Shown: positions 19,162-46,110 of the stretch, piece by piece
Layout: each line of letters begins with the position of its first letter
How positions within the stretch are numbered: the stretch's first letter is position 1
Assembly (NCBI GenBank): GCA_003963145.1
Contig: RXJJ01000014.1
Location: forward strand, 1 to 64,000
DNA: 64,000 bases
Origin: Bradyrhizobiaceae bacterium
Lineage (GTDB): Bacteria; Pseudomonadota; Alphaproteobacteria; Rhizobiales; Xanthobacteraceae
Direction: 5' to 3'
Made by a program: the position numbers and the translations under genes
Notes under the pieces: generated by a model
Seen by the model: the letters and a program-made list of their open reading frames with translations, nothing else
What the model was told of the DNA's origin: nothing
The model's database searches: none

Positions 19162-19251
19162 GGAGAGGTGGCAGAGTGGTCGAATGCACCGCACTCGAAA
19201 TGCGGCATAGGTGCAAGCCTATCGGGGGTTCGAATCCCTCCCTCTCCGCCA
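19162..19251 (+). tRNA. tRNA-Ser(CGA)
   Basis: A 90-base cloverleaf including an encoded CCA end (19249-19251). The acceptor stem GGAGAGG pairs with CCTCTCC, the anticodon stem CCGCA pairs with TGCGG around the loop CTCGAAA with anticodon CGA at 19196-19198, the T arm GGGGGTTCGAATCCCTC is standard, and the long variable arm is that of class II serine tRNAs. A tyrosine integrase gene starts 85 bases downstream, making its 3' end the likely attachment site of the adjacent island. Confidence 0.97.
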
Positions 19252-19336
19252 GCACTGTAAGAAACCCAATAAAATCAACAGGTCATTGATTGCTATAGGC
19301 TTTTAACCGCCCGACTGGTACACACGGGTGGTACAC

Positions 19337-20854
19337 ATGGCACTTTCGATGGCGCGTCCCTGGAAGCATCCCGATAGCGGGTATTATTGGTTTCGAAAAC
19401 GTGTCCCCGACGATCTTAAATTGGTCCTCGGTAAGGGCGAAGAACGCTTCAGTCTCGGCACCCGCGATCCCATTGAAGCCAAGCGTGTTCACGCCTTACG
19501 TCTTGCTGAGATCGAAGAGCGTTGGTCGAATCTGCGAAAGGGTCAGCATCCTCTTGGTGCCGACGAGATCGCGCGCGAAGCGCTCGCAGTCGGGGATATC
19601 TTGCGCCAGCAATTGAGCGCTAATCCATTTCAAGACATCGCGTGGGACATAGAGATAGGAGCGGAGCTTTGGAGCTCGCCGCAATCCAAGAAAATTTATG
19701 CCGATGTAACTCGGTCTTTAGACAGCACAGAGCGTCGCAAGATTGAGCAACAAGATTTTTGCTTCGCGCTTGCTGATGAACGATTGAGCCTGAAAGGTCG
19801 ATCTGTCGGCGACACAGATCGTCGACAGCTAGCACACGCCGTCTCGATGGAACTTCAGCGCGTCGTTCAGGGACACCGCTCATACTTACGAGGACTCACT
19901 GAAACTAACATCAACACTGGTTCTGCGTTGCCGGTTCAGCGGGTGGCTGGGCCACCATTGCAATTTGATGCCTTGATAGAGGGCTGGGTTCTCGAAAAGA
20001 AACCAATCAAAAAGACGGAGTATGTTTGGCGGCGAGTAATGAAGGAACTCGCGTCATTCGTGGGTCATGACGATGCGCGCCGCATTCGAGCAGATGATCT
20101 TGTCTCTTGGAAAGCGCACCTGCTCGCCAAAGGCCTCAAGGCGAAAACGATCAGAGACGGCAAGCTTGCACCTGTAAGAGCCATCTTTCAGTGGGCAACG
20201 GATAACCGAAAGATCGACAGCAATCCCGGCGCACGTATCAACATCGATCTCAAAGCGCGTTCCTCGGAGAAGCGTCGGGGTTATTCAGACGAAGAGGCCC
20301 GAGTTGTTTTGCTAGCCGCTCGCCGAGAGAGTGAGCCGCATCGACGTTGGGCCCCTTGGGTCAGTGCATTTACGGGGGCACGGATTGCCGAAGTATGTCA
20401 GCTGCGCCGCGAAGATATTCGAAAGATCGACGGTATTGATTGTATCGCATTCGCCGCTGAAGCTGGCTCGCTCAAGAATGTAAATTCCGAACGTGTGGTG
20501 CCGGTCCATCCGGCGTTAAAAAGCGAGGGCTTTCTTAAATTTGCGGAGTCGGTCAAGAGTGGTCCGCTGTTTATGGACCTCATGCCGGATCGGTTCGATA
20601 GCCGTGGGGGTACTGGAGCCAAGGTTTTAAGCAGGTGGATTAGGTCGCTGGGTCTCACCGACAAAAGAATTTCACCAAACCACTCGTGGCGGCATCGCCT
20701 TAAAACATTGGGCCGGCGACATGGGCTTGCCGTTGATATTATGGACGCAATGACCGGTCACGGTCGAAAGACGGTTGCGGATACTTATGGGGAATTCCCC
20801 GCAGACGCGATGCTCCGAGAACTAAAGAAAATTCCAAGCATTGAGTTTGAATAA
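19337..20854 (+). CDS. Tyrosine-type site-specific integrase
   Basis: Phage/island integrase, about 505 residues, expected to recombine an attachment site at the 3' end of the preceding tRNA-Ser. The N-terminus (ARPWKHPDSGYYWFRKRVPDDL) is of the DUF6538 type, followed by a SAM-like core-binding region and the catalytic domain with arginine in FTGARIAEVCQL, HSWRHRLKT (H-x-x-R), the histidine in MTGHGRKT and the nucleophilic tyrosine in VADTYG near the C-terminus. All catalytic residues are visible, so it should be active. A GTG nine bases upstream (19328) and an ATG at 19349 are alternative starts. Confidence 0.93.
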   Translation: MALSMARPWKHPDSGYYWFRKRVPDDLKLVLGKGEERFSLGTRDPIEAKRVHALRLAEIEERWSNLRKGQHPLGADEIAREALAVGDILRQQLSANPFQDIAWDIEIGAELWSSPQSKKIYADVTRSLDSTERRKIEQQDFCFALADERLSLKGRSVGDTDRRQLAHAVSMELQRVVQGHRSYLRGLTETNINTGSALPVQRVAGPPLQFDALIEGWVLEKKPIKKTEYVWRRVMKELASFVGHDDARRIRADDLVSWKAHLLAKGLKAKTIRDGKLAPVRAIFQWATDNRKIDSNPGARINIDLKARSSEKRRGYSDEEARVVLLAARRESEPHRRWAPWVSAFTGARIAEVCQLRREDIRKIDGIDCIAFAAEAGSLKNVNSERVVPVHPALKSEGFLKFAESVKSGPLFMDLMPDRFDSRGGTGAKVLSRWIRSLGLTDKRISPNHSWRHRLKTLGRRHGLAVDIMDAMTGHGRKTVADTYGEFPADAMLRELKKIPSIEFE

Positions 20855-29349: not shown

Positions 29350-30957
29350 ATGCACATTGCCGGGCGGGTGCGCAACGACAGGAGTAGGATCTTGGCTGAC
29401 GAACTGCGCAAACCGGTCCTACAGGATCACATAGTAGTCAAACGCAAGCTCGTGCCGACCTTCGTGCACAAGCTCGGAGGAAAGCTGTCCCAATATTCCT
29501 GGACCCGCCAACTCGTGCCCGAGGCCCTGTGGATTGGTCTGGTCATCGACCATTTTGGCTATGAGGAGGCTCGGGGCTATTGTCGTACCTTAGGCCGAAC
29601 GGCCTGCGCGGCGATGGACGAGGCCGAGCGCTCGATGTTCGTTAAGTTCAGCGCGTTCGCAGAGCTTTCAGAGGCGATGAAGGTGTCGATGACGTCCGCG
29701 CTAGATCCTTCTATCCTCACAGCGATCCGTCAATCACTGGCGCCGCTGGCAGTCGTGGCGCCTGATCATCCTTTGGCGTTCTTGGGAAGTGTGGACGCCA
29801 CGCCCGAGCAGAAGGAGCGCTTGCCCGAATTGCTCCGCGAACTTTACGACCGCAATGGCCGCGTAGCGGTACTATCTATGGCACTTGGCTATGAGCTGGG
29901 ATTAGACCAAGGCAAGCTTCACGTCGCGGAGCCCTTGGTCGATGACCTTATTGAGCGGCTCAAGGTTATCAACCGCTATCCGGATACGGAGGAAGCGCGG
30001 CGCGCCGCTGGCGCCTTTCGAGCGGCGGCATCGAGTTTGTTCATGACTGTGAAGCTGGATGGCGGCGGCTTCGAGGACGACGCGTTGTGGGTAGAGGCGT
30101 TCTGGGGTTGTATTTCTGGTTTTGGTCCCTGCCATTTCCCGGACACTCTCGAAGATGAGACCACCGACAGCGAAGATGACCTAGAGCGGTTCGTCTTCGC
30201 TTTTCGCAACGCCGTTCGAGCAGATCTGCGCGCCAGACTAGCGAACTGGCCGCTGGATCTGAACGCGGTTGAGGTCTTCGAGGTGGTGACGGCACTCCTT
30301 TGCCGACAGGCGGCGCTGACCATGGAGATGGCATCTTCGCCGGGCGTCTGGACCCCGCACATTGCCCCCATCCTATTAAGGGCGATCGCTGACGTCTTCA
30401 TCAGCCTAGCTTGGATTCTGAAGGACCCTGGACCGCGGGCGCGGCGGTTTGTTGAGGACGGGCAGGGCGCCGTCAAGCTGCAGATCGCCCATCAGAAGCG
30501 AGCGCTGGAAGCCGCGACTGACCCGGAAGATGCCGAGGAACTGCGGCAGATGATCGAAATCTGGAGTAACTGGTTGGCGGGCCAACGGATGGAGGTATTC
30601 GTCGAGGTGAACCTCGGCAACTGGTCTGGTCTCAACGCGCGAAAAATGGCCGAGGAAGCGGGCTTCATTGACTTCTACAACTATGTCTATCAGCCGTTTA
30701 GTGGCGTCGCCCATTCAAACTGGGCCCATGTGAGCATGTTTAATACGGTCCCCTGCCAGAATCCGGCACACCGCGGGCATCGTGGCGCGGCGATCGCGCC
30801 TGTGCCGGTTGATCTGAACTGGCTCTATCTGGCGTCAAAGTATCTCAGCAAGACGTTCGGGCATTTTGACAGCGTGAATGGCCTAAATCTACCTCATGCC
30901 GCTTTCGATCTTGTCGGCGCGCAATTGTTGGAGGCGCCTGACGAGGCCGACAGCTAG
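29350..30957 (+). CDS. DUF5677-like hypothetical protein
   Basis: A 535-residue, mostly helical protein. The segment PILLRAIADVFISLAWILKDPGPRARRFVEDGQGAVKLQIAHQKRA (near residues 337-385) matches my memory of the DUF5677 family, with a later FYNYVYQPFSGVAHSNWAHV that contains conserved-looking H and W residues. Function of the family is unknown. The first 14 residues precede a TTG (29392) that would also be a reasonable start. It is transcribed away from the MauJ-like gene, and the two may be a unit given their shared promoter region and helical character. Confidence 0.5.
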   Translation: MHIAGRVRNDRSRILADELRKPVLQDHIVVKRKLVPTFVHKLGGKLSQYSWTRQLVPEALWIGLVIDHFGYEEARGYCRTLGRTACAAMDEAERSMFVKFSAFAELSEAMKVSMTSALDPSILTAIRQSLAPLAVVAPDHPLAFLGSVDATPEQKERLPELLRELYDRNGRVAVLSMALGYELGLDQGKLHVAEPLVDDLIERLKVINRYPDTEEARRAAGAFRAAASSLFMTVKLDGGGFEDDALWVEAFWGCISGFGPCHFPDTLEDETTDSEDDLERFVFAFRNAVRADLRARLANWPLDLNAVEVFEVVTALLCRQAALTMEMASSPGVWTPHIAPILLRAIADVFISLAWILKDPGPRARRFVEDGQGAVKLQIAHQKRALEAATDPEDAEELRQMIEIWSNWLAGQRMEVFVEVNLGNWSGLNARKMAEEAGFIDFYNYVYQPFSGVAHSNWAHVSMFNTVPCQNPAHRGHRGAAIAPVPVDLNWLYLASKYLSKTFGHFDSVNGLNLPHAAFDLVGAQLLEAPDEADS

Positions 30958-31037: not shown

Positions 31038-31628
31038 TCAAAGCTGCTCTTTCACAGCATCTGGAACTTTTTCGAGTGATGGCTTGAAATCTTTGAACGT
31101 CTTTTCGTTCTGCTTGATGCAATCGGCGATGGCGGTCAGCATGGTGCCGCCCTTGGTTTCAAAGCTCGCAGTAAAGTTCGGTAGATTACCCGGCATGACG
31201 AGAGTGAAGTAGCGCGTATTCCAAAGAGGCTCGGTAAGCGCTGTGGGTTTGACCTGTTGAATAATGATTGTGTTTTTGTTTTTGACGTTAAATATGAAGT
31301 CGAACCCGGAAATGAGTCCAGAATTGTTTGCCCCGTAGAGATTCCAGCGCAGCGTGCCAATGTCTGGTCCCTCGATTTGCCATTCTGTATCGTAGACTAA
31401 GACCCAGAGTTCGCCGTCAACAAGCGATCGGTGGATCTGAATGATTGAACCATCCTTCTTGGTCGCCTCACCGAAACAGGTGGCTTGACCGGTGTCGGTC
31501 TCGGCGCCGCCAATGACCGTCCAGAACCTGTCTGTCTCTTTCTTGTAAAAGGTCTTCTCTTCTGCCTCGATCAGAGTCGTGAAGAGAAGGGCCGTTAAGA
31601 AGGTTACGATTGGAAGAAACATCTTCAC
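31038..31628 (-). CDS. Exported hypothetical protein
   Basis: A 196-residue protein with a clear signal peptide (MKMFLPIVTFLTALLFTTLIEAEE) and a beta-rich mature part with two cysteines (TCFGEA, ADCIKQ) that could form a disulfide in the periplasm. No family is recognised. Its start overlaps the stop of the upstream lipoprotein gene by ATGA. It is the last gene of a three-gene minus-strand operon (32423 to 31038). Confidence 0.6.
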   Translation of the reverse strand: MKMFLPIVTFLTALLFTTLIEAEEKTFYKKETDRFWTVIGGAETDTGQATCFGEATKKDGSIIQIHRSLVDGELWVLVYDTEWQIEGPDIGTLRWNLYGANNSGLISGFDFIFNVKNKNTIIIQQVKPTALTEPLWNTRYFTLVMPGNLPNFTASFETKGGTMLTAIADCIKQNEKTFKDFKPSLEKVPDAVKEQL

Positions 31629-32047
31629 GGCAGCACCGTCACGTAGTTCTGGCCGTTAGCTAGGGGCTGGACGACGTAGTTCACCAAGGTGTCGGTCGTA
31701 AGCGCAAAACCCTTCTTGGGGGCCTCGACTCTGATCTTGGCGATCTCCTCCTCAGAAGCCTGCTTGGTAAATCGCATCATTTCGATGATGTCGGTGGTGA
31801 TAAGAACGGAGCAACGATTTTTGGTGCTGTCCTTATCAGTAGATACTTCTGTCGCGCTCTTGGTTTGAACGACGAAGACGCTCGGTGGGGCTTCGATAAA
31901 TTGTCCGAACTGCTGCTTGTCGAAGAGCTCTTTGACCTTCGACAGCACGGCGCTGTCGGAGCAGGGCGAGTCGTTACAGGCGGCGAGTAACCCGGTAATT
32001 GCAAAAGCTGCGGTCACGCCAAGCAAGCGGATCATTGATTTCTGCAT
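31625..32047 (-). CDS. Putative lipoprotein
   Basis: From the ATG at 32047 the product is 140 residues with a lipoprotein signal: MQKSMIRLLGVTAAFAITGLLAAC, the lipobox LAAC placing the lipidated cysteine at residue 24. The mature part has a second and third cysteine (SPCSDS, NRCSVL) and no recognised domain. A longer reading from 32098 would add 17 residues before the signal and overlap the upstream gene. It lies four bases after the membrane-protein gene and overlaps the exported-protein gene. Confidence 0.65.
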   Translation of the reverse strand: MQKSMIRLLGVTAAFAITGLLAACNDSPCSDSAVLSKVKELFDKQQFGQFIEAPPSVFVVQTKSATEVSTDKDSTKNRCSVLITTDIIEMMRFTKQASEEEIAKIRVEAPKKGFALTTDTLVNYVVQPLANGQNYVTVLP

Positions 32048-32051
32048 GACA

Positions 32052-32423
32052 TCAACCGAACAGCCACGAGGTAGGCTGGGGAATCGGTCGCCCGTCATTC
32101 AGGAGGATTAGGCCCTTAATGGTCCGGACCAGGGTCCAGACAAACCACCACAAGAGGATCGGTCCGCCGACATACAGGAAAAGAAGAAAACTTCCGACCC
32201 CGAGATAAAGCAGGCCGATCCAGAATGTGCGGACTTGAAACTGGAAGTGGCTTTGAAGAAAGCCGGTGGCGGTGGGTTTCTTGACGTAGGCGATTATGAC
32301 GCCGACCAGCGCGGTTATTCCGGTCAAAAACCCAATTAGATAAAGAAGATAGACTGCAAGAGCATAGCCCTTGTCGTTCGCGGCAGGTGTTTCCACTGCC
32401 GGCCGGTCAACTGCGTTGGTCAC
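32052..32423 (-). CDS. Small membrane protein, DUF4870-like
   Basis: A 123-residue protein with three predicted membrane helices (AVYLLYLIGFLTGITALVGVIIAYV, FWIGLLYLGVGSFLLFLYVG, ILLWWFVWTLVRTIKGLILL). The SHFQFQVRTFWIGLLY segment and overall layout resemble small Tic20/DUF4870-type membrane proteins. It is the first gene of the operon with the lipoprotein and exported protein, suggesting an envelope-associated unit of unknown role. Confidence 0.6.
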   Translation of the reverse strand: MTNAVDRPAVETPAANDKGYALAVYLLYLIGFLTGITALVGVIIAYVKKPTATGFLQSHFQFQVRTFWIGLLYLGVGSFLLFLYVGGPILLWWFVWTLVRTIKGLILLNDGRPIPQPTSWLFG

Positions 32424-32484
32424 TTAACCTGCCCCCTTAATTGCAAACATTGCCTGCTTTCCAATTCGGGAAAGTCTACGGGAA

Positions 32485-32519
32485 ATTGACGTCAATGTGC
32501 AATATAATGCGTCGCATTA
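32485..32519. promoter_or_regulatory. Two palindromes upstream of the XRE gene
   Basis: ATTGACGTCAAT (32485-32496, perfect 12-bp palindrome) and TAATGCG-T-CGCATTA (32505-32519, 7-bp arms around a single T), the latter overlapping a TATAAT hexamer at 32503-32508. They lie between the XRE gene (+) and the membrane-protein operon (-) and are good candidates for autoregulatory operator sites. Confidence 0.6.
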
Positions 32520-32547
32520 AAGTGCAACGCTATGGCCGTCTAGCTGC

Positions 32548-32799
32548 ATGTCGGATGACGTGCGGCGAATGGTTGGCGATAACGTTCGGAGGCTAAGGCT
32601 TGATGCCGAATTGTCTCAAGCCGAGCTTGCCGATCGGATGGGAGTAGATCGAGCGTACGTTAGTGGCTTGGAGCAAGGACAGCGAAATCCCACGGTTGTG
32701 AGCTTATGGCACGTTGCGCAGGCGTTAAAGGTGCCCATGCGTGCTTTCTTTGAAGAAGCGAAAAAGCGGAGTGCTAAAGAAAATCAGAGCAAGCGTTAA
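32548..32799 (+). CDS. XRE-family transcriptional regulator
   Basis: An 83-residue helix-turn-helix protein, about the size of phage or restriction-modification controller proteins. VGDNVRRLRLDAELSQAELADRMGVDRAYVSGLEQGQRNPTVVSLWHVAQAL covers the complete HTH_3 domain, followed by a basic tail. There is no convincing ribosome-binding site upstream, so translation may be leaderless or weak. Two palindromes precede it (32485-32519). Its 3' end overlaps the convergent phosphatase gene by 26 bases. Confidence 0.88.
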   Translation: MSDDVRRMVGDNVRRLRLDAELSQAELADRMGVDRAYVSGLEQGQRNPTVVSLWHVAQALKVPMRAFFEEAKKRSAKENQSKR

Positions 32800-33460
32800 T
32801 TCGCGCTTGAGCTAAAATCCTCTCAACATTCGACGATTGGTCGGTAAATACAGCCGCTGTCAGCGGGTTTCCAAATACAGCTCCAGTGTCGATGTTTACT
32901 CGATTAGTGCGGATATCGGGCTCGCCGTTTTCGGTGGGCGTATGTCCGTGAACGATGAGTCGTTCGAAGCGCTTGTTCGACGAGAGGAATGGCTCTCTGA
33001 TCCAGAGCAGGTCTAAATCATCTTGCTGGGCGAGCGGGCGATGCGGGTCGACTCCCGCATGCACGAAGAAGCGCAGGCCATCGTCATGGAACTTCGGGAG
33101 TTGCCGAAGCCAGTCGATATGATCTTTCGGTATTTGATAGGCGTTGCTTACGCCATAGCTTTCGAGCGTTTGAATGCCTCCATTGCGTAGCCAACGATCT
33201 TCCCAATCCGGATGATCTGTTGCCGCGAGCAACATGTCCTCATGATTGCCCATCAGGCAGATAACCTGTTTGGGGCGCGCATGCTGCAGGGCCATGAGAA
33301 ATTTAATTGCCCCTCGACTGTCCGGACCGCGGTCAATGTAGTCGCCGAGAAAAATGAAACGTGCGTCGTGTTCGCTGGCATCTTGTTCGCATAGCTCAAC
33401 GAGTTGTTTCAGTTGCCGCAGGCAACCATGGACATCGCCAACTGCATAGGTTCGCACCAT
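32774..33460 (-). CDS. PPP-family serine/threonine phosphatase-like metallophosphoesterase
   Basis: Metal-dependent phosphoesterase of the PPP type (PrpA/ApaH-like). The motifs GDVHG, GDYIDRG, GNHE and HGHTP are present in order, the standard di-metal site. I prefer the ATG at 33460 (228 residues), five bases after a GAGAGAA sequence; an ATG at 33487 adds nine residues. It could be a protein phosphatase or a dinucleoside tetraphosphate hydrolase; the substrate cannot be told. It lies in the same direction as, and 38 bases after, the zinc-ribbon gene. Confidence 0.88.
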   Translation of the reverse strand: MVRTYAVGDVHGCLRQLKQLVELCEQDASEHDARFIFLGDYIDRGPDSRGAIKFLMALQHARPKQVICLMGNHEDMLLAATDHPDWEDRWLRNGGIQTLESYGVSNAYQIPKDHIDWLRQLPKFHDDGLRFFVHAGVDPHRPLAQQDDLDLLWIREPFLSSNKRFERLIVHGHTPTENGEPDIRTNRVNIDTGAVFGNPLTAAVFTDQSSNVERILAQARINACSDFL

Positions 33461-33498
33461 TGAAATTCTCTCAATCATCGTAGTCATATGGCTTTAGT

Positions 33499-36217: not shown

Positions 36218-37365
36218 CTAGAGCGCTCGTCGGTTGGCGACAACTAAGGTCGAGACATTTCCGCCTTGAATGTTCTGCTCAAATAGCACGGCAGATTTAA
36301 ATATCTTCATAGAAATAGCCTGATCTCCGACGGCGGAGAAGCTTGACAGCCCAGCGGCCGATATCGAGACGTCGGTTGCGCCGCCTTCGGCCACATCGCC
36401 AAGTTCAAGGATTGGGCAGTCCACAGTTGCCGTACCACCGTTAACGCGTGTAGCGAAAGTTATAGTTCGAGCGTCTTTCAAACTCAGAGTGATTTCACTT
36501 TTGTCAGGTTTCACTCCGCCGTGCTTGGTTTGCGCAAAAATGTGACCGATACGGTTAGCAAGATCGAATGCTTGAACCTTTATCTCGGCGCTGCTGCTAT
36601 TACGGCCAGGCCATCGCGATCCTTTTCCGGCTACAGGAATTGAACAGGAAAGATGATCGTTCGAAACGATCTGATGCCGGCCGTCATTAGTGAGCGTGAT
36701 ATTCTGACCTGTAAAGCGTCCAAGAAGTGCGATAGCGCGGTTGCTGTGTGCATGTTCGACCCGAAAATCGACTTCGATGAGGGCGTCCATATGAACGGTT
36801 CGAACAGACTAGCCGCGCCGGCCAATGCGGCCGAATCCGAAACACTCATGATGGAAAATATCGGGTTTGTGTCTGACTTTTTGGCAAAGCTTCGAACAAG
36901 TTGGAGTGATCTACGAAGCGCGTCAGTATTAACGGGCACACTATGAATCATTGTTGAGGTCGCAGGCGTGATATCCGTGCCAAGCAGCACGTAGAACCAC
37001 ATAATCGTAGTTGTGCCCGTGCGAATCTCGATACGACCCTCATCTCCAACGGCCTGCTTGAAATGTGGGATCGAGAATTCAATGTCTTCGTCGGACTCAG
37101 CCAGATCGTCCAGACCAGCAAAAGCATTTATCGAAATTTGCAGTTCTAAGTTGCCGTCTTCGCTTAAGCCAGTTGGCCGTTTCAGTGGGACCGTCACCAC
37201 CACTTCAATCGCGTCTGTCAGCACTATCTGCATTTGACGGGATGACAAACGAACGAGAACATCATCAGCATCTGGACCGATTGTCGTCACGGCATCCTTT
37301 AGCAGAGCAGGATCGGTGGCAAAGCTGATCTTCATAGGCAACACGACGTCTTGTTCGGCCTTCAT
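36218..37365 (-). pseudogene. Sliding-clamp-like gene, split by a frameshift
   Basis: Two overlapping minus-strand frames (37365-36631 and 36790-36218) together give about 380 residues, the normal length of a bacterial beta clamp. The first covers an N-terminal region (DPALLKDAVTTIGPDADDVLVRLS) and most of a second domain; the second continues with RAIALLGRFTGQNITLTNDGRHQIVSNDHLSCSIP and ends with a clamp-like terminus (GLSSFSAVGDQAISMKIF through LVVANRRAL). A -1 shift near 36790-36800 (...LFEPF to HMDALIEVDF) joins them without a gap. No classical slippery heptamer is seen. It could be an indel, a programmed shift, or two separate subunits since the second frame has its own ATG at 36790. It follows the clamp-like gene at 37369 directly. 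Confidence 0.5.
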
Positions 37366-37368
37366 CAC

Positions 37369-38676
37369 TTACTGTCTTCCCGAAGTGTGTTTTCGTTCAT
37401 TCATGCGCTGCAGACTCACGAGTATTTCGCAAGTCAGTTGGTCCTTCGTGTCTTGCAATATGAGTCTCGTGCGATCCTCGGTAAAACCAAGTTCGGCGTT
37501 TGATGCTGAAAACTCTTCAAGGAAAGAATAAATAGGAGAAGCAGGTAAGGAAACGTTGAGCGCACGAGGCCCATCCGGCCGAGATGCCGAGACGGTAGAC
37601 GATATAGATAGGTCTCTCGTGTCTGCTGGATTGAATGCGAGCATTTGACATGTTGTCAAACCAATGCTGTCGCAAGATAGCCGTAGCACTCCACCAGGGC
37701 CAAAAGTGCGAACGGTTGCTGAAACAACCGAGCGAAGCTTGGATGCCGGAATTAGTAGATTTTCCGCAATCGTTTGTGGCTCGATCAGGGGAAAGGATTG
37801 TTGAATGGCTTCAAAGCCAAATAATACATTGTCCCCCTTGATGACACAAAAACTTTCATTGTGGCGCAATTTCGCGGTGCCGATAAAAGGAAGCACTGGC
37901 TTCACAAATCGCAAAAGCCGGGGCCGAAACGAAACGCTTATTTCAGCCAGTCGTTCTGAGCTTGCCTTAGCCAAACAATTACGCGTTGCCGCAAGTGCGG
38001 CACCATTTGATATTTCGACGAGATCGAACGTTGCATCGGCGCTATCAGTATTAACGAATTTGCTGACGAAGTTGATCGCCCGCATAAGCATTTGAGTTTC
38101 AATGGACGCAGACTCACAGCTTTCAAGGCTTTTTAGAATCTTGTCGGAGTGAGCAAGAAACCGCTCATGGGGATAGACATAAAGCGGGCGCGTAAATTCT
38201 GGTGACGTCACTTCGATGAGGCGGGTACCAACTCTGAATGAAGCGTTTTCTCCAAGAGCTTTAGAGGTAGCAATTAGGTCATCAAGGGAGAGGATACGAA
38301 TTGAGGCCGATGCGCCAGCGGGATGATTCCATACTGGCCCGTGCATGGTTACTTGAACAAACGATTGGCCAATGTCCGCGTCCCAACGCACTCGATCGTT
38401 AAAAATGTTAAGCCGGACAACGCGGTGCCGCGGATCGCTATACTTCAGCAGCAGGTCAAGGATTCCAACCATCTTACGGAAGTCGAGTGCTGTAACAGCA
38501 AAGCCAATTTCGTCGATCTGAAGGGGAACACTGAAGTCGGGTTCTTGGAGCCCGGTGCGGCCGACCGGTATCGAATCCAAGGATATCGTGCCGAAGTTTG
38601 CATTAGTTTCAGTGAGAGGAATACCCTCAGCCGTATTGAGAATTTCATCAACGTCAAAAACAATTTCTTGATTCAT
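37369..38676 (-). CDS. Sliding-clamp-like (DnaN-like) protein
   Basis: A 435-residue protein from the ATG at 38676; an in-frame start at 38709 is possible. It has the rhythm of a DNA sliding clamp: repeated strand-helix units, FDLVEISNGAALAATRNCLAKASSERLAE in the middle, NVLFGFEAIQQSFPLIEPQTI followed by ENLLIPASKLRSVVSATVRTFGPGGVLRLSCDS (as at the domain II/III junction of DnaN), and PIYSFLEEFSASNAELGFTEDRTRLILQDTKDQLTCEILVSL near the end. Similarity is weak and structural prediction would be decisive. It is divergent from the DnaX-like gene and followed immediately by a second clamp-like gene. GC content is well below the core genes. Confidence 0.5.
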   Translation of the reverse strand: MNQEIVFDVDEILNTAEGIPLTETNANFGTISLDSIPVGRTGLQEPDFSVPLQIDEIGFAVTALDFRKMVGILDLLLKYSDPRHRVVRLNIFNDRVRWDADIGQSFVQVTMHGPVWNHPAGASASIRILSLDDLIATSKALGENASFRVGTRLIEVTSPEFTRPLYVYPHERFLAHSDKILKSLESCESASIETQMLMRAINFVSKFVNTDSADATFDLVEISNGAALAATRNCLAKASSERLAEISVSFRPRLLRFVKPVLPFIGTAKLRHNESFCVIKGDNVLFGFEAIQQSFPLIEPQTIAENLLIPASKLRSVVSATVRTFGPGGVLRLSCDSIGLTTCQMLAFNPADTRDLSISSTVSASRPDGPRALNVSLPASPIYSFLEEFSASNAELGFTEDRTRLILQDTKDQLTCEILVSLQRMNERKHTSGRQ

Positions 38677-38728
38677 AGCTTTACCCGGGGCGTATCTGTA
38701 CATGCTCAAGGATATACAAAGCGGATTA

Positions 38729-38749
38729 CAGGTGTCCTGGAGACACCTG
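38729..38749. promoter_or_regulatory. Inverted repeat between clamp-like and DnaX-like genes
   Basis: CAGGTGTC (38729-38736), 5-base spacer, GACACCTG (38742-38749): a perfect 8-bp inverted repeat in the 118-base region between the two divergent starts (38676 and 38795). A candidate operator controlling both directions. Confidence 0.55.
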
Positions 38750-38794
38750 CAGACCGCTCACTTTGAAGATGGTGGCGAGCACGGTGTCTCTGGA

Positions 38795-40834
38795 ATGGAC
38801 CAAATCAGCAATCTGAGTCTAGCGCAAAAGCACAGACCACGAGACCTTCAGGATATTATAGGCCAAGACGAAATTGTTTCGTTCTTAGGAAAGCAAATCG
38901 AAAGCAAAAACGGGCGAAGCGTTCTTATTCACGGCCGATCGGGCTGTGGGATAACCTGCATCGCGGAAATATACGCTGCAGGATTGCTTTGCGAGCGACC
39001 CGGTAAAGGGCCGTGTCATTCGTGTGAGTCGTGTGATGCGTTTAGACGCGAAATTCATCCTAATCTGAGGATGATGCGTCACGGCGCGGTAGACGACGTG
39101 CGTTTTGCCCATCAAATCAATGATGAGGTTGAAACGGAGTCATTTGGATCGGGAGGCTTGGTTGTGTTGATCGATCAAGCACAGCTCCTGTCGGAACGCT
39201 CGTTTCAAATTTTGCACGAGCGGATGGGCCGCCCAATGAAGCGGGTCACATATATACTTTGCACTAACGACATAAGTCAGATTCCACTTGCGACAATGGA
39301 GCAACTCTATCCGCTTCAAGTTAATGCACCGACGTTCGCGTCCGGCACGGTATTTTTGGAGAGGCTGTGCCACGCAGAAGGAATAGAGTCAGATATCCCG
39401 GCTCTCGAACTGATCGTTGAGCGTACACGAGGATCATTTCGAGGAATTGCCAGAGACCTAGAGATAATTGCCAGCAGGGGCGCAATCACCGAAGTGTCGG
39501 TCTTGGACTACTTCCGCTCAGGCCCGGCGGCAGGTTATGTCGAGTTAGTTTTCCAACAAGAGCGCTTCGAAGATCAGTTAAAATTCCTCAGTGCATGGAA
39601 AGACGAGGCGAGCGATAAGATTAAACTTATTCGCCAGTATCTCGGCGAGATATTCGAAGCAGCTTCAGGCCTGACAGCGAACAGACCCCTGCGAAGTCTT
39701 CTCGCGGCGGAGCCAACATTGGCAAAGGCGTTTTCTGATAGGACGCTATTTCTGAAAGCTCAGCCGCGCGCGTTTGCGCATCGTTTACTGGAAATTTGGG
39801 AACATGGCTCCAAAGCCGAACATGAAACGCTATTGCGCAAGGCGAGTGAGTTCGATGAACTTCTTGGCGGCACAAAACTGGAAATCGCAGATGGGAATTC
39901 CAGGACGATTTTAAAGCCCTGGCGTGACGCGAAGGCGCGGACGAAGCGTTACACGGAAAACGATAAAGAGTTAGGTAAGCGGGTAGACCATCCTCTCAAT
40001 GGTAAGGTGATTGAACATCTCCCATATCTGAAAGCAAAGAAGTTATGGGACAGTGCGTCATTTCTCATCCAAAATTACGGACAGTTTCTCAATACTCGAA
40101 TTTCTATACGTCACGATAACCTGACTCTTAAACAATCGGATGGGCCGGCGAAACTCATTACTGACCTTACCCACGAACTTCGAATGTTCATAAAGCGAAG
40201 TGTTGGCGGGTCTGACCAATTGCATTGGCTCTACGTGCATCGTTGGGATGACGAACAGGGCCTGATCACTGATATTGTAGCTCACATCCCGGATGAATTG
40301 AGGGATATAGAACCATGGGTTCGCGATCGATTCTTCGGCAATCGTGTTCTTGCGGAAATTCCAAAAGATGCATTTTCAATAACTCGTGAGGCCAATCACG
40401 GTTTACAGGGCCATCTCAAACTCATTCGCGAGATGTGTGCTGGAATCGATCCGGACTTATCAGAGAATAAATTATTCATTCGCCGCGCTGAAATAGATAT
40501 CAAGAAGACCGGTTGGCATATGGCGGTAAATCAAACGGTGCAAGGAAGCGGAGTTTCACGCTTTCTGGATACCGCCGCTCGTCGGCAAGCTGATAACGAT
40601 CTAACGGTGCTTTCTGCCGTTGACGATAAAACCGCACAGATGTGCACAGGTTGGGAGAGGGCAGAATTCGCCTATCGAAAAGGAATAATTGATCAGCGAT
40701 TGTCGGAAGAGCATGAGCTTGCCAGGATCTACAATGGAAATGATCTTCAAGCGCGTCGCAAAGTGTTTCACAACGCTTGGCGAGCGTCGCGCCCGTTTAG
40801 GGAGGCTAGGCGTCCTGGTTTTCATAATTTCTGA
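38795..40834 (+). CDS. DnaX-like clamp-loader protein with degenerate ATPase and Rep-like C-terminus
   Basis: A 679-residue protein from the ATG at 38795 (a longer frame starts at 38702). Residues 1-230 resemble the DnaX (gamma/tau) AAA+ module: QKHRPRDLQDIIGQDEIV, a complete four-cysteine zinc module (C66, C74, C77, C80) spaced as in E. coli DnaX, and a sensor-2-like GSFRGIARDLE. The ATPase site is degenerate: Walker A reads GRSGCGIT (47-54) with isoleucine for lysine, and Walker B LIDQAQ with glutamine for the catalytic glutamate. Residues about 405-600 resemble Rep proteins of small mobile elements (FLNTRISIRHDNLTL, HELRMFIKRS, HWLYVHRWDDEQGLITDIVAHIPDEL), but the HxH metal site of HUH endonucleases is lost. 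Divergent from the clamp-like genes. Confidence 0.6.
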   Translation: MDQISNLSLAQKHRPRDLQDIIGQDEIVSFLGKQIESKNGRSVLIHGRSGCGITCIAEIYAAGLLCERPGKGPCHSCESCDAFRREIHPNLRMMRHGAVDDVRFAHQINDEVETESFGSGGLVVLIDQAQLLSERSFQILHERMGRPMKRVTYILCTNDISQIPLATMEQLYPLQVNAPTFASGTVFLERLCHAEGIESDIPALELIVERTRGSFRGIARDLEIIASRGAITEVSVLDYFRSGPAAGYVELVFQQERFEDQLKFLSAWKDEASDKIKLIRQYLGEIFEAASGLTANRPLRSLLAAEPTLAKAFSDRTLFLKAQPRAFAHRLLEIWEHGSKAEHETLLRKASEFDELLGGTKLEIADGNSRTILKPWRDAKARTKRYTENDKELGKRVDHPLNGKVIEHLPYLKAKKLWDSASFLIQNYGQFLNTRISIRHDNLTLKQSDGPAKLITDLTHELRMFIKRSVGGSDQLHWLYVHRWDDEQGLITDIVAHIPDELRDIEPWVRDRFFGNRVLAEIPKDAFSITREANHGLQGHLKLIREMCAGIDPDLSENKLFIRRAEIDIKKTGWHMAVNQTVQGSGVSRFLDTAARRQADNDLTVLSAVDDKTAQMCTGWERAEFAYRKGIIDQRLSEEHELARIYNGNDLQARRKVFHNAWRASRPFREARRPGFHNF

Positions 40835-41341: not shown

Positions 41342-42577
41342 CTAGGCAGTCTTTGGTGTGGGTATCGGTGCAGCTGATAGCGGGAGTGCGAATGTGATCG
41401 CCCAGCAGGCAAGCAACATGACCGCCGACCCGATGAGGCAACCGGTGATGCCTCCGATTTGATAGAGCAATCCTGAAAGCGTGATGCCGAGAAGGCGTCC
41501 AGCGGCATTAGCGGCGTAGTAGAAGCCGACATCCTCGGCGGATTTCTCTGAGCCTGCATAGGCAAGGATCAGATACGAGTGCAGCGACGAATTAACAGCA
41601 AACGGCAAGCCGAATAGCGCAAGTCCTGTGACGATGATGAGATCGGGCCGGGCCACATCGGTGGTTTTCATGATCACGGCGAGAATGATTGGAACGGCCG
41701 CGAGCGCCAGAGCCCACAGCCGCGCCGCGGGGACTTCGCGGCTCAGCCCATCGGCGCTTCGCGAAACCAAGGAAGGGGCGATGGCTTGGATGCCGCCATA
41801 GGCGATCGTCCAAGCGGCGAGGAAGCCGCCGACTTCAAGAAAGCGCCAGCCGTTGGCGTAAAGGAACACAGGCAGTCCGACGACGAACCAAACGTCACGC
41901 GAGCCGAACATGAAGATGCGCGCCGCGGCCAACAGGTTCACGCCGCGTGACTTTCCGAAAAGTTCCTTGATCGTCTTGGACGATTTTGCCTTGCCGAGAT
42001 GGCGCGGTAACAAGACGAGGCCCGCAAGGAAAATCACGGCCAGAAGAGCGGCCATCGCCCAAAGCGCGTGCCGGAATCCAATCAGATCGAGAAGAAGTCC
42101 GCCGACGAAAAATCCCACGCCCTTCATGGCGTTCTTGGAGCCTGTAAACCACGCGACCCAGCGGAACAATTGGCTATTGCCATCGGAAGAGGTGGCTTTG
42201 ATCGCGGATTTTGAGGCGGTCTTCGTCAGGTCTTTCGCAACACCGGCGATGCCTTGTGCTGCGACGACCCACGCCACGGATACGATCGCGCTCCATTGAT
42301 CGCTGAGGCACGAGAGCATAAGAAGGCCGGCTATCTGTAGGAGCTGACCGGCGGCGAGCATTCTGGGAATGCCGTACTTTGAGGCGAAGTAACCGCCCGC
42401 GAGATTGGCCGCAACACCGGCGGCTTCATAAAGAAGAAACAGGAACGCCAGCGTGAATGGCGTGTATCCGAGACGGAAGAAATGAAACAGCACGAGCATG
42501 CGCAGGGCGCCGTCCACGAGGGTGAAGCCCCAGTAGGACGCCGTGACGATCAGATAGTTTCTCGCGGTTGAGGTCAT
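41342..42577 (-). CDS. arsJ: ArsJ organoarsenical efflux permease (MFS)
   Basis: Major-facilitator permease of 411 residues with about twelve membrane helices. It begins [41 protein letters not shown], the characteristic ArsJ N-terminus. The known role of ArsJ is export of 1-arseno-3-phosphoglycerate made by the partner GAPDH from arsenate. The start at 42577 overlaps the gapdh stop by ATGA, the classic gapdh-arsJ pairing, which makes the assignment firm. Confidence 0.93.
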
Positions 42578-43623
42578 ACACCCGCCCTTGCGACAATATT
42601 CGCCAAGTCGACCATCCGGCACGCATAAGCGACTTCGTTGTCATACCAGGCGTAAACTTTGAGAAGCGTTCCGTCCGTCACCATCGTGCTAGGGGCATCG
42701 ACGATCGAGCTACGCGTGTCGTTGTTGTAATCCGCAGATACGAGAGGCCGCTTCTCTACACCCAAGATGCCCGCCAGGACCGTTTTCTCGGCAGCCTCAA
42801 AAAGTGTATTGACCTCGGCAACCGTGGTCTCGCGCGACAGCTCGAATACGCAGTCCGTGAGACTCGCATTCAGGACCGGCACGCGGACAGCGTGGCCATT
42901 CAGCTTTCCCTTGAGTTCGGGGTAGATCAAGGCGATGGCGGTCGCGCTGCCGGTTGTCGTTGGCTGCATCGACAGCATAGCCGAGCGGGCGCGGCGCAAA
43001 TCCTTATGAGGGGCATCGACGACGACGTTCGTGTTCGTCGGATCATGGATCGTGGTGATCTGGCCGTGCTTGATGCCCAGCGCTTCATGAATCACCTTGA
43101 CGACGGGTGCCAGACAATTTGTCGTGCATGATGCTGCTGTCAGTAGGCGATGGCGTTCCGGATTATAAAGTCTGTCGTTAACGCCGACGACGATGTTGAG
43201 CGCGGCCTCGTCCTTGACCGGAGCCGCAACGATAACGCGCTTCACCCCGCGATCGAAGTAGCCCTGGAGCTGATCGGGCTTCAGAAATTTCCCGGTACAT
43301 TCCAGAACGACGTCGCAACCCAGATCACCCCAAGGAATATCGCCGGGCTTGGCGGCGTCGGTGAAGCCGAGCCGTTTATCACCGATGCCAACAGTATTGC
43401 CATTCTCGACGCCGATTTTTTCATGCCAGCGGCCATGAATGCTGTCGAATTCCAGAAGGTGCGCCGCCGCTTCAATGCCTCCCTTGAGTTCATTGATGTG
43501 AACGACGTCCAACCGGTTCGATCGGCGAGGATCGTTTTCGGGACGATGTGTGCCGCCCAACGCCGCGCGCAGGGCGAGCCGGCCGATGCGGCCCATTCCA
43601 TTGATCCCGACTTTCATGGTCAT
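42574..43623 (-). CDS. ArsJ-associated glyceraldehyde-3-phosphate dehydrogenase
   Basis: GAPDH of 349 residues with the NAD-binding start [16 protein letters not shown] and catalytic cysteine in [14 protein letters not shown] (near residue 165). In ars operons this enzyme uses arsenate in place of phosphate, making unstable 1-arseno-3-phosphoglycerate, which ArsJ exports; this is established for the Pseudomonas pair. It is encoded between the arsR-arsC fusion (5-base gap) and arsJ (ATGA overlap), so it is dedicated to arsenate resistance rather than glycolysis. Confidence 0.93.
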
Positions 43624-43628
43624 TCCTT

Positions 43629-44522
43629 CTAAGGTGAAACACGGTTGGTATCGCCGATTTCATCGAGGCGGGCTTTCAGAGCCATCCGGTCGAGTGAGGC
43701 GAACGGAAGGCTTACGAAGACCTCGATGCGGCGGCGGATCATTGCGTAGAGTTCGTTGAGAAGCGTTGTCTTTTCGGCGGGCGTGCCGTGGAACAGCACG
43801 GGATCGGGAAGCGGCCACGCACCGGTGACAAACTTGTTGTCGAGATCAGGACAAAACTGTCCTTCGGGCGTGTCGCAAAGCGCGATCACGAAGTCCATTT
43901 TCGGCGCATTCGCCCCTGTGAATTCGCTTAAGGGTTTGCAACGCAAGTTCTCGACGTTGTGACCCAGATGGCGCAAACGCTCGATAACCTCTGGCAGCGG
44001 CTCTTTCGCCGGATCGGAGCCGGCCGAGTAGGCGTGAAATTTTCCATGACCGATCTTTTCAAGAAGCGCTTCTGCCATGATCGAACGGGCTGAATTGTGT
44101 GTGCATAAAAAAAGGACGTTAAAGGCCGGCATAATTTTATCCCTCCCGGGGCGTTCGCTTGTTTGTGGTCGGTTGTAGGAAGACTGGCCGCATAGTTCGG
44201 GCCTGCCGTTGCAGCAATCGCGTGTGAGAAAATCGACGAGATCGTGGAAGCCCGCGACGTCCGCGCGGTAATTCATCGCGCGGCCTTCCTTCGCGACTTC
44301 AACCAAGCCGGCGCGCGTCAGGATGCTGAGATGAGTGGACATGGTGTTGTGAGGCACGTCGCAACGCCGTGCGATCTCGCCTGCGGCGAGGCTTTCCGGA
44401 TGAATGGCCAGCAGCAAACGCAGCGCCTGAAGCCGGGTCGGCTGCGCCAGAGAACCGAAACGTTCGAGAGCGATATCGCTGCCGGCAGATTCCATCTCAA
44501 GCGCTGCCGGTAACAGGGCCAA
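43629..44522 (-). CDS. ArsR-ArsC fusion protein (regulator plus arsenate reductase)
   Basis: A 297-residue fusion. Residues about 18-105 are an ArsR winged helix ([54 protein letters not shown]) with cysteines in [14 protein letters not shown] that could bind As(III). Residues about 132-290 are a low-molecular-weight phosphatase-type ArsC with the P-loop [12 protein letters not shown]. First gene of the arsRC-gapdh-arsJ operon, divergent from pstS at 44641. A second, similar fusion lies at 52328-53212. Confidence 0.92.
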
Positions 44523-44600
44523 AACGGAACCGCCTTGCGCTGGCGAGGCTCAAATAAAGAGGAGCTTGCGTTTCCGTCATGTAAGCGTCATTCTGCTGCG

Positions 44601-44624
44601 ATATGTCGAGACGCATCGACATAT
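44601..44624. promoter_or_regulatory. Candidate ArsR operator upstream of pstS copy 1
   Basis: ATATGTCG (44601-44608), 8 bases, CGACATAT (44617-44624); the arms extend to 9 bp (ATATGTCGA/TCGACATAT). It lies between divergent arsR-arsC and pstS, 16 bases before the pstS ATG. The same arrangement occurs at 53253-53276. Confidence 0.75.
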
Positions 44625-44640
44625 ACATGAGAGATCGCAC

Positions 44641-45657
44641 ATGATCAAGTCAGTATGGACAGTCGGCGCCCTTCTTGTTCTGGCCCTTCACGCCACATCA
44701 GCCCTCGCGGGAGAGACGGACGGCGCGGGGTCGACCTTCGTTTTCCCAATCCTTTCGAAATGGGCCACCGCATATGAGGCGAAAACGGGCGACAAAATAA
44801 ATTACCAGTCGATCGGCTCCGGCGCGGGATTGCAGAAAATCCGAGCGGGCACCGTGGATTTCGGTGCCTCCGACATGCCTTTGCAGCCCGAAGAACTGGC
44901 CAAGTCGGGACTTGGACAATTTCCTCTCGTGATCGGTGCGGTCGTTCCTGTCGTGAATATCGATGGCGTGGGCCCGGGCGGAATACGATTCAGCGGCACC
45001 GTTCTGGCTGACATCTTCCTCGGCAAAATCAAGACGTGGGACGACCCGGCTCTCAAGGCCCTGAATCCCGGCGTCACGCTGCCTTCGGCCGCGATCACAG
45101 TGGTCCATCGGACGGACGGATCCGGCACAACCTTTAACTGGACCAACTATCTCTCCAAGATCAGTCCCGAATGGAAGGAAAAGGTGGGTGAAGGTGTGGC
45201 CGTTGAATGGCCAGTCGGCGTCGGTGGAAAAGGTAACGAGGGCGTCGCGGCCTTTGTCGGCGTATCGAAGAACTCCATCAGTTACGTCGAATATGCTTAT
45301 GCCGTGCAGAACAAATTGTCGTACGGGCTTGTGCAGAACCAAGCCGGCAAGTTCGTCCAGCCGAATGCCCAATCGTTTCAGGCTGCGGCAGCCAGCGCCG
45401 ATTGGACCAATGCAAAAGACTTCTACCGCATCATGACGAATGCACCCGGAGAAAACGCCTATCCGATCACGGCGACTTCCTTCGTGCTGATGCCTAAGCA
45501 GCCTAAGGATCGCAATCGATCGAAAATCGCGCTCGATTTTTTCCGCTGGTCGCTCGAACATGGACAAAGCGACGCCGACGCGCTCAATTACGTTCCTCTT
45601 CCCAATGAACTTGTCGATAAAGTCGAAAGCTACCTCAAGAGCGATTTCGGAACATGA
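44641..45657 (+). CDS. pstS: Phosphate-binding protein PstS, copy 1
   Basis: Periplasmic phosphate-binding protein, 338 residues from the ATG at 44641, with signal peptide (IKSVWTVGALLVLALHATSALA). GAGSTFVFPILSKWATAYEAKTGDKINYQSIGSGAGLQKI and VVHRTDGSGTTFNWTNYLSK supply the phosphate-binding residues. It is separate from pstCAB, which has its own copy 8.7 kb away, and is coupled by ATGA overlap to arsC. A role in favouring phosphate over arsenate during arsenic exposure is inferred from context. Confidence 0.93.
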   Translation: MIKSVWTVGALLVLALHATSALAGETDGAGSTFVFPILSKWATAYEAKTGDKINYQSIGSGAGLQKIRAGTVDFGASDMPLQPEELAKSGLGQFPLVIGAVVPVVNIDGVGPGGIRFSGTVLADIFLGKIKTWDDPALKALNPGVTLPSAAITVVHRTDGSGTTFNWTNYLSKISPEWKEKVGEGVAVEWPVGVGGKGNEGVAAFVGVSKNSISYVEYAYAVQNKLSYGLVQNQAGKFVQPNAQSFQAAAASADWTNAKDFYRIMTNAPGENAYPITATSFVLMPKQPKDRNRSKIALDFFRWSLEHGQSDADALNYVPLPNELVDKVESYLKSDFGT

Positions 45658-46097
45658 ACGAGCAGACGGCGGATGTGGTGATCTATCACAATCCCGAGTG
45701 CGGGACGTCCCGGAACGTACTCGGCCTCATTCGCAATGCGGGTATCGAACCTCACGTGATCGAATACCTGAAAACGCCGCCTTCGCGCGAAATGCTTCTA
45801 CGGCTCGCACGAAGGATGAATGTTCCGCTGCGGTCGATTCTGCGCGAAAAAGGCACGCCTTACGCAGAACTTGGTCTCGATGATCCGAAATTGTCCGATG
45901 ACGATCTACTGGATGCGATGATGACGCATCCCATCTTGATCAATCGGCCCATCGTCGTGACGTCAAAAGGCGTCCGCCTCTGCCGTCCGTCCGAAACCGT
46001 GCTGGACATTCTTCCGCTGCCGCAGCAGCGTGAGTTTCGAAAAGAGGATGGCGAGCTTGTCGTCGATAGTCACGGCCACCGCGCCGTGAAGGCTTAA
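45654..46097 (+). CDS. arsC: Arsenate reductase ArsC, glutaredoxin-dependent
   Basis: Reduces arsenate to arsenite using glutathione/glutaredoxin. The 147-residue protein starts with VVIYHNPECGTSRNVLGLI, where the cysteine is the catalytic thiol, and contains the arginines of the family (LRSILREKGTPY; HPILINRPIVVTSKGVRLCRP). Its product would normally be exported by the Acr3 pump encoded next, but that gene is interrupted. Overlaps the pstS stop. Confidence 0.95.
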   Translation: MNEQTADVVIYHNPECGTSRNVLGLIRNAGIEPHVIEYLKTPPSREMLLRLARRMNVPLRSILREKGTPYAELGLDDPKLSDDDLLDAMMTHPILINRPIVVTSKGVRLCRPSETVLDILPLPQQREFRKEDGELVVDSHGHRAVKA

Positions 46098-46110
46098 ACC
46101 GGAGAGTTTT

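Follow-up and report, generated by a model that had tools for sequence, protein, structure and literature searches.

What do a clamp-loader-like gene and two tandem genes of sliding-clamp length do together on an integrated island? This question is raised by a trio of genes (Table 1) in the window, that is, the whole stretch of 64,000 nucleotides from a Bradyrhizobiaceae bacterium that was analyzed here, which comes from a draft assembly of 32 contigs. In a preliminary description of the locus, it was proposed that the products of the three genes form or subvert a clamp/clamp-loader complex, either to replicate a mobile element or to interfere with foreign replication. We propose, at a probability of roughly 45%, that the trio represents one form of a so far undescribed cassette family found in alphaproteobacterial genomic islands, namely a defence module assembled from replisome parts and a nuclease.

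Table 1. Features of the window that are discussed in the text
Feature	Position	Strand	Remarks
tRNA-Ser(cga)	19162..19251	+	adjoins the integrase gene; its end is the attachment repeat
Tyrosine-integrase-like protein (DUF6538) of the island	19328..20854	+	Pfam scan
Calcineurin-like metallophosphatase, 237 aa	32774..33487	-	relatives adjoin PDDEXK_13 in several loci
DUF2958 protein, 114 aa	33743..34087	-	relatives adjoin PDDEXK_13 in several loci
PDDEXK_13 / REase-ARP nuclease, 414 aa	34084..35328	-	PF20796 3.6e-91, PF22558 6.7e-28
Broken clamp-like gene 2, second of its two frames (C-terminal part), 190 aa	36218..36790	-	
Broken clamp-like gene 2, first of its two frames (N-terminal part), 245 aa	36631..37368	-	
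Clamp-like protein 1, 435 aa, open frame	37369..38676	-	weak phrog_947 match
Divergent intergenic region between clamp-like gene 1 and the DnaX-like gene, 118 bp	38677..38794	.	presumed promoters
Divergent fusion protein, 679 aa: DnaX-like AAA+ part and Rep-like (HUH) C-terminal domain that lacks catalytic residues	38795..40834	+	

The trio lies on an integrated island

The integrase-borne nature of the region, claimed in the preliminary description, was borne out by an integrase gene beside tRNA-Ser and by an attachment repeat: the last 19 nt of the tRNA gene (19233-19251) are found again at contig position 82547-82565, beyond the window, which gives an island of about 63 kb. The accompanying claim that no DNA polymerase, helicase or primase gene lies nearby holds for the 10 window proteins that were scanned with Pfam, a subset of the island genes.

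The divergent gene encodes a distant DnaX homologue fused to a Rep-like domain

By sequence, the divergent gene is a homologue of DnaX, only a distant one, of clamp-loader ancestry. As had been proposed, its product is of the DnaX type: it matches PF13177 (E 1.3e-13) and the TIGR02397 dnaX model (E 2.6e-32), and its residues 7-219 match gamma/tau in the PDB (E 5.4e-17). It shares with bacterial gamma/tau the AAA+ module, the four previously noted cysteines (C66, C74, C77, C80) and, in a low-confidence model, Foldseek matches to the gamma/tau chains of E. coli that span about 375 columns (TM 0.14-0.16). However, its TIGR02397 score of 112.5 bits is far below the curated NCBIfam cut-off of 250 bits, the Walker-A lysine, Walker-B glutamate and Arg finger (SR(C)) are all missing, and a Rep-like C-terminal domain is present instead of the tau domains. 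A housekeeping DnaX is present at G000:C1, to which the gene in the window is accessory.

The conserved motifs were tabulated for 14 of 18 loci; L100, L108, L109 and L110 were left out as fragments, split or stand-alone genes, with L108 entering the table as a stand-alone Rep. The four cysteines are kept in all 14 DnaX-like proteins. The Walker-A lysine, whose absence from the window protein (GRSGCGIT) had been noted before, is kept in the other 13. A feature that had been overlooked is that Walker-B glutamate and Arg finger are lost throughout the trio-type subgroup: both are missing also from the proteins of L037 and L041, which retain the Walker-A lysine. In the ten delta'-type loci described below, Walker-A Lys, Walker-B DE and Arg finger are present in 10 of 10 proteins.

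From about residue 410 onward, the fusion protein matches stand-alone HUH Rep-like proteins, in agreement with its earlier designation as a Rep-like fusion. The DNAX_B HMM, run against 10 sequences, detected such proteins with E-values of 5.7e-12, 7.1e-10 and 3.4e-9; two of these proteins match PF23343 (REP_ORF2-G2P) weakly (E 0.002-0.003), and the C-terminal topology in the low-confidence model, H-E-H-E-E-H-E-H, fits an HUH Rep. The HUH pair and the catalytic Tyr (YxxK) are kept in all four stand-alone Rep-like proteins tabulated, but are missing in 14 of 14 fusions, the first His being kept in L103. This pattern argues against a nicking initiator; as a Rep/HUH relative that has lost the ability to nick, the domain probably only binds DNA.

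Matches to the DnaX-like protein were obtained for 140 phage records, in each case over less than 80% of its length; the 20 matches listed stop by residue 333. With the A3 query, two clamp-loader-like loci were found in viral contigs, the match reaching at most residues 1-276, and the search of genome contigs returned L041 as well as a Saccharibacteria match (L042) on residues 8-216.

The cassette occurs in two forms

The preliminary description had made its proposal dependent on the co-occurrence of the three genes in other genomes. Among 391 genomes of the family to which the window belongs, three contain clamp-like gene 1, in each case with the full trio in the identical divergent order: the genome of the window, a genome of the same genus (L037) and a Bradyrhizobium genome (L041). 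The C-terminal domain of the fusion is more widespread (14 of 296 genomes sampled from the family). In ten loci, genes for a delta'-like AAA+ protein and an unnamed partner take the place of the clamp-like genes, accompanied in 8 of the 10 by a gene for a VapE-like helicase; no primase or polymerase was seen among the selected genes of these cassettes. Clamp-like and delta'-like genes were never found together (5 versus 10 loci, the clamp-like genes of L107 and L110 being assigned by reading and weak scores only). These sister cassettes had escaped the preliminary description, and one of them, more complete than the trio, is located on another contig of the same genome (L040). A literature search retrieved no description of such a cassette, in line with the earlier statement that no system of this composition was known.

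One of the two tandem genes is broken in the window

The tandem genes had been described as two clamp-like genes. Their length is indeed clamp-like, but the second gene is broken into two frames, a break that had been overlooked. The frames align to the N- and C-terminal parts of the intact genes of L037 (440 aa) and L041 (388 aa), and the C-terminal frame matches the HMM of these two genes with an E-value of 8.6e-17. A programmed frameshift is less likely than a mutation or sequencing error, given that no clear slippery site was seen by eye (300 nt) and that the relatives have one frame.

Because clamp-like gene 2 is split and the Walker-A lysine is missing, the copy in the window is probably decaying. 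That the trio is a remnant without present function is indeed a probable reading, which is compatible with any of the functions considered for the family. The lysine is lost in the window alone (1 of 14 proteins), and the same genome harbors the more complete cassette mentioned above. On the other hand, the DnaX-like gene and clamp-like gene 1 are open end to end, the frame break may be an assembly error in the draft, and a protein that has lost its ATPase residues could still serve a structural role. Intact sister copies of the cassette exist in any case.

Weak signals suggest that the tandem genes encode clamps

The fold of the tandem gene products is suggested only by weak sequence signals, and the two genes probably encode clamps. 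Like DnaN, PCNA and 9-1-1, they have the appropriate length, a fitting partner gene and faint sequence and fold hints; they differ from these clamps in being two dissimilar tandem paralogues without a significant sequence match, and the ring is only putative. We consider it unlikely that they represent another, non-clamp family of similar length that merely accompanies the DnaX-Rep proteins. For such a family speaks that the window proteins match no Pfam family at E<=1, that three of four clamp-like relatives lack any Pfam family and the fourth has one chance-level match, and that there is no PDB sequence match. Furthermore, six of seven clamp-like proteins compared with the DnaN profile scored no better than shuffles, in a test that fails on DnaN's own domains, and the AlphaFold model (pLDDT 29.7) yielded no Foldseek match with E<=0.001. 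Against it, clamp-like protein 1 has one weak PHROG match, to a polymerase processivity factor (phrog_947, E 0.0067), in register with its middle part, and the profiles of the two clamp-like proteins align in register (E 0.005). In addition, the L110 protein scored 26.6 against DnaN, compared to a mean of 15.8 and a maximum of 24.6 for 40 shuffles, and PCNA/9-1-1 entries make up 22 of the 50 Foldseek rows shown for the low-confidence model, these rows being non-independent and non-significant (best E 0.08). Finally, the genetic partner is a clamp loader.

A PDDEXK_13 nuclease is the most constant partner of the cassette family

The preliminary description had passed over the neighboring nuclease gene. 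Its product scores 306 bits against PF20796 (cut-off 27), and D195, D200, E218 and K220, which we read as the predicted catalytic residues, show no variation in the rows that contain these positions, at least 14 of the 16 aligned. PDDEXK_13 is found near 15 of the 18 loci carrying the DnaX-like protein or its C-terminal domain, or 14 of 17 without the stand-alone Rep of L108; L102 and L104 are near-identical. The loci lacking it are the fragments L100 and L109 as well as L033, on a 13.6-kb contig. The nuclease is the most constant partner of the cassette family, and it is rare, with 19 copies in 16 of 198 family genomes. For nine of the 19 copies, a DnaX-Rep family match is no more than about 10 kb away, and five further copies are near a stand-alone Rep-like gene (L115, L119 and L120 by HMM, L116 and L118 by motif reading). 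No DnaX-Rep or Rep-like neighbor was seen for the remaining five (L114, L117, L121, L122, L123), with a simple gene caller that missed opposite-strand genes and, in L116 and L117, the nuclease itself. The nuclease is mostly encoded on the strand opposite to the DnaX-Rep gene (on the same strand in L110), and about 0.2 to 6.5 kb separate it from the closest gene of the cassette; no single operon is clear.

Known defence genes occur nearby

According to PADLOC models, ShosTA and a DitA-like gene are located in the window at 11 kb and 3 kb from the nuclease gene, respectively. A ShosTA-like pair was recognized by eye in L110, and L034 contains a CBASS-type phospholipase. Defence models were also applied to 81 proteins out of 121 selected neighbors, all with a length of at least 200 aa; the others were dropped, including proteins judged by eye to be housekeeping and one with off-locus coordinates. 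Among the 25 of 464 matched families that were listed, without protein attribution, there was one strong match each to GajA (3.7e-292), GajB, JetC, a class I argonaute, a type I REase, a type III REase and a type II MTase. By reading, Gabija was assigned to L115 and Wadjet to L121, two PDDEXK_13 loci that lack a DnaX-Rep gene.

The cassette resembles the systems of PADLOC-DB 2023 in its gene neighborhoods and in pairing a nuclease with an ATPase partner. However, none of the models matches the DnaX-like, clamp-like or PDDEXK_13 proteins of the window (E<=1), and the relatives gave only weak P-loop matches (E<=0.1). Therefore, the defence reading is drawn from gene context.

Interference or replication

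As the relatives are usually near a DNA-cutting enzyme and often among anti-virus genes, a role in defence is possible. The core of the proposed module would be the clamp-loader-type AAA+ protein with its extra, non-nicking Rep/HUH-derived C-terminal domain. It would be joined either by one or two clamp-like proteins or by a set comprising a delta'-like AAA+ protein, a partner that occupies the position of delta and, in most cases, a VapE-like helicase. When foreign DNA begins to replicate, the loader part would settle on its primer-template, hairpin or single-stranded structures. In the variant of the window, it would hold or open the clamp-like rings at such structures; given its degraded ATPase motifs, it would work either as a passive wrench or with loader subunits taken from the host. 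The DnaX-Rep/clamp assembly might then license the neighboring PDDEXK_13 nuclease to cut. If true, this would be a bacterial immunity built from replication machinery, in which loader, clamps and a dead Rep domain sense foreign replication and are coupled to a nuclease, a sensing principle that was not found described in the literature. It would also raise the question of whether alternative clamps exist in bacteria at all. That clamp-like genes alternate with delta'-like genes next to a single constant protein is a concrete pattern that can be checked.

Of the two functions named in the preliminary description, the evidence tilts to interference, owing to the missing Walker-B glutamate and Arg finger, the break in clamp-like gene 2, the PDDEXK_13 neighbor and the delta'/VapE sister cassettes. 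The other function remains as the main rival, with a modest chance: a replication or maintenance module, in which an excised island would depend for its copying on the host polymerase and on a loader (or clamps) of its own. An origin would be bound by the Rep-like domain and opened by the VapE-like helicase, and PDDEXK_13 would be an accessory nuclease of the element. Consistent with this, the trio resides on an island with integrase and attachment repeat, 10 of the 25 stretches L099-L123 contain integrase-like genes, mobile elements typically have VapE-like helicases and Rep domains in their replication equipment, and PDDEXK_13 also adjoins stand-alone Rep-like genes with HUH motif and, in L114, Prim-Pol and a helicase. 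The loss of the HUH pair and Tyr from all fusions argues against it, as do the lack of primase and polymerase among the selected delta'-type cassette genes and the window variant, which has neither a working set of ATPase motifs nor a helicase. Even if the cassette only replicated islands, it would be unusual for integrative elements to carry an accessory loader together with dedicated clamps, and this could be tested.

In eukaryotes, Rad17-RFC acts with the 9-1-1 clamp, an alternative loader subunit with alternative clamps. A more specific and rather improbable form of the defence reading follows this functional analogy: the Rep-fused loader and the unlike clamp pair would mark replication structures of the invader and call the PDDEXK nuclease, with the delta'/VapE cassettes as a sister form. 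Homology would be limited to the general loader and possible clamp folds; the cassette differs by its nuclease partner, and signalling by it would be analogical only.

A plasmid or phage replicon was rejected, as the C-terminal part of the fusion and clamp-like protein 1 were found in 0 of 72,556 plasmid records (the former also speaking against the replication module), clamp-like protein 1 was found in no viral contigs, and PDDEXK_13 was present in 2 plasmid records and in 1 of 50,697 phage records. On the Roseomonas plasmid p546-4, PDDEXK_13 is accompanied by a Rep-like match 6.4 kb away.

A divergent gene trio recurring in three genomes

The region 36218-40834 is a divergent pair of transcription units, consisting of a DnaX-like gene and two tandem clamp-like genes, as the preliminary description had stated. 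The DnaX-type assignment was borne out by matches to PF13177 (1.3e-13), E. coli gamma (5.4e-17) and TIGR02397 (2.6e-32, yet below the cut-off of this family). The tandem pair was confirmed in part: the first gene is open, but the second lies in two frames in the window.

Features discussed in the text (window positions unless a contig is given)
Feature	Position	Strand	Remark
ShosA/ShosT-like pair	21128-22658	+	PADLOC; just inside the island
579-aa protein	22711-24450	-	between ShosTA and the rest
DitA-like protein with DUF5677	29350-30957	+	PADLOC, 7.6e-19
Clamp-like gene 2, in two frames	36631-37368 and 36218-36790	-	gene call
Clamp-like gene 1, 435 aa, open	37369-38676	-	gene call
DnaX-like protein, 679 aa	38795-40834	+	N-terminal third homologous to clamp-loader subunit DnaX
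Second cassette (L040)	G000:C14:203000-221000		delta'-type cassette adjoining PDDEXK_13

A search with clamp 1 recovered one further genome among 149, G427 of the same genus, and a three-row clamp-1 profile matched 3 of 391 family genomes (that of the window, G000, as well as G427 and G940). The co-occurrence for which the preliminary description had suggested looking was indeed found: in G427 (locus L037) and Bradyrhizobium sp. sGM-13 (L041, with the genes of G940 contig C6), clamp 1 and clamp 2 run divergently from the DnaX-like gene, in the window order. Identity to the window is 41% for the DnaX-like protein and 28% and 26% for clamp 1. In these relatives clamp 2 is a single open frame (440 aa in L037, 388 aa in L041), to two parts of which the two window frames align; thus, the window copy is either broken relative to both or affected by a draft error.

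The tandem genes probably have a clamp fold, to which the partner gene, the length and one weak processivity-factor match point. The alignments are in register but weak, and in a Foldseek search with a very poor model 22 of 50 rows were PCNA or 9-1-1 entries (best E 0.08, none significant). Sequence, profile and Foldseek searches gave zero significant matches, the profile test being without power according to its positive controls.

Two cassette types in a wider family

In the order sample, the DnaX-like protein matched in 278 of 297 genomes; G218 and G019 hold full-length relatives, and the others, among the matches listed, align over the AAA+ half, which is what housekeeping DnaX would give. 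With an earlier three-row profile of the C-terminal part, G000 was the sole match in 289 genomes of the class; a later profile matched in 14 of 296 genomes of the family, among them fragments and one stand-alone Rep (G778).

Annotation of the neighbourhoods with HMMs built in this analysis distinguished two arrangements. In ten loci (L033, L034, L040, L099 and L101-L106, of which L102 and L104 are near-identical), a delta'-like AAA+ protein, with PF13177 in all five tested, adjoins the DnaX-like gene. A partner of about 380-430 aa, to which no library gives a name, occupies the delta position, either ahead of the delta'-like protein or fused to it; a VapE-like helicase is present in 8 of the 10. 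In five loci clamp-like genes occur instead, two each in the window, L037 and L041 and one each in L107 and L110, where reading and weak scores are the basis of the assignment. None of these ten and five loci combines clamp-like with delta'-like genes.

G000 itself carries a second cassette, L040, in which the genes past the nuclease (a phosphatase, by HMM search, and two small proteins, by eye) resemble window 31038-33487, that is, two cassettes with one shared flank. On the 10.7-kb contig of L110 (G858:C142), a clamp-like gene, PDDEXK_13 and, by eye, a ShosTA-like pair are present, with the DnaX-like AAA+ and Rep-like C-terminal parts in separate frames.

ATPase motifs and the C-terminal domain

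GKT, DE and SR are kept in 10 of 10 delta'-type proteins. In all three two-clamp proteins (window, L037, L041) the Walker-B glutamate is replaced by Gln and the Arg finger is lost; the L107 protein keeps DE and has lost the serine preceding the arginine. The window protein additionally lacks the Walker-A lysine, as described before, and its four cysteines were likewise seen again. The predicted hydrolysis residues are thus lost in the proteins travelling with clamps, not in those with loader partners, which would imply loss of independent loading activity.

Small proteins adjoining other PDDEXK_13 genes (L108, L115, L119, L120) have clear GFHSH(V/I)(L/M)(M/I)N and YxxK motifs, and REP_ORF2-G2P is a weak match (E 0.002-0.003) for two of these. 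The HMM of the window-type DnaX-like proteins, searched against ten sequences, aligns through its C-terminal part to L108 (5.7e-12), L119 (7.1e-10) and L115 (3.4e-9). Of the aligned sequences, 4 of 4 stand-alone proteins have the histidine pair and the tyrosine, against 0 of 14 fusions, and a low-confidence model has a strand/helix order compatible with Rep. Judged from sequence, the C-terminal domain of the fusions is a predicted dead Rep.

Linkage to the PDDEXK_13 nuclease

A PDDEXK_13 gene lies near 15 of 18 loci, or 14 of 17 if L108 with its stand-alone Rep is set aside; near means within the locus's own 10-20 kb stretch, except for L037, where the gene is 6.5 kb past clamp 2, in the neighbouring stretch L111. 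The nuclease is rare, with 19 copies in 16 of 198 genomes and none in 14 control genomes. Nine copies are within about 10 kb of a C-terminal-profile match, five more are beside a stand-alone Rep-like gene, and one (L114) is beside Prim-Pol and a helicase; for the other four no such neighbour was seen with a simple gene caller known to miss opposite-strand genes. The nuclease is thus found together with replication-type proteins. Part of this linkage can be explained by a shared island. The Pfam name REase-ARP hints that the curators saw the nuclease associated with something.

Among the systems tested and in the literature searched at listing level, no known system fits the trio as a set. Our leading, tentative reading (probability about 0.45) is an immune module: a modified loader carrying a DNA-binding dead Rep domain would recognize replication structures of foreign DNA, acting together with clamp-like rings or with delta'/helicase partners, and would license the PDDEXK nuclease. 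The main rival reading, a replication module of the island, is judged less likely.

In L114 (G428:C1:328000-347900) the helicase is of SF1 type, and an integrase is nearby. On the Roseomonas plasmid p546-4 (L124, 40314-48225), a distance of 6.4 kb separates a PDDEXK_13 relative from a Rep-like match, with restriction and HepT/MNT genes nearby.

Defence genes and mobile setting

The island containing the trio begins at a tRNA-Ser with an integrase, and the tRNA end is repeated as a 19-nt copy 63 kb further along the same contig. Over 35-41 kb, G+C is 48-50%, lower than the 58-65% measured to the left of this tRNA. Integrase-like genes are present in 10 of 25 stretches.

The window encodes ShosTA (PADLOC; ShosA 6.3e-96, ShosT 2.2e-42); the 579-aa protein next to it has no match in Pfam or PADLOC at E<=1. 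L034 has a phospholipase effector. For 81 neighbour proteins, PADLOC output, pooled rather than attributed per protein and without a random-locus baseline, contained single strong matches to Gabija, Wadjet, argonaute and restriction proteins. By reading, Gabija is at L115 and Wadjet at L121, both nuclease loci without a DnaX-Rep gene.

In the same island as the trio, at about 41342-47172, reading by eye rather than by family search points to a likely arsenic/phosphate cluster (transporter, GAPDH-like, ArsR/phosphatase fusion, PstS-like, ArsC-like, ACR3-like).
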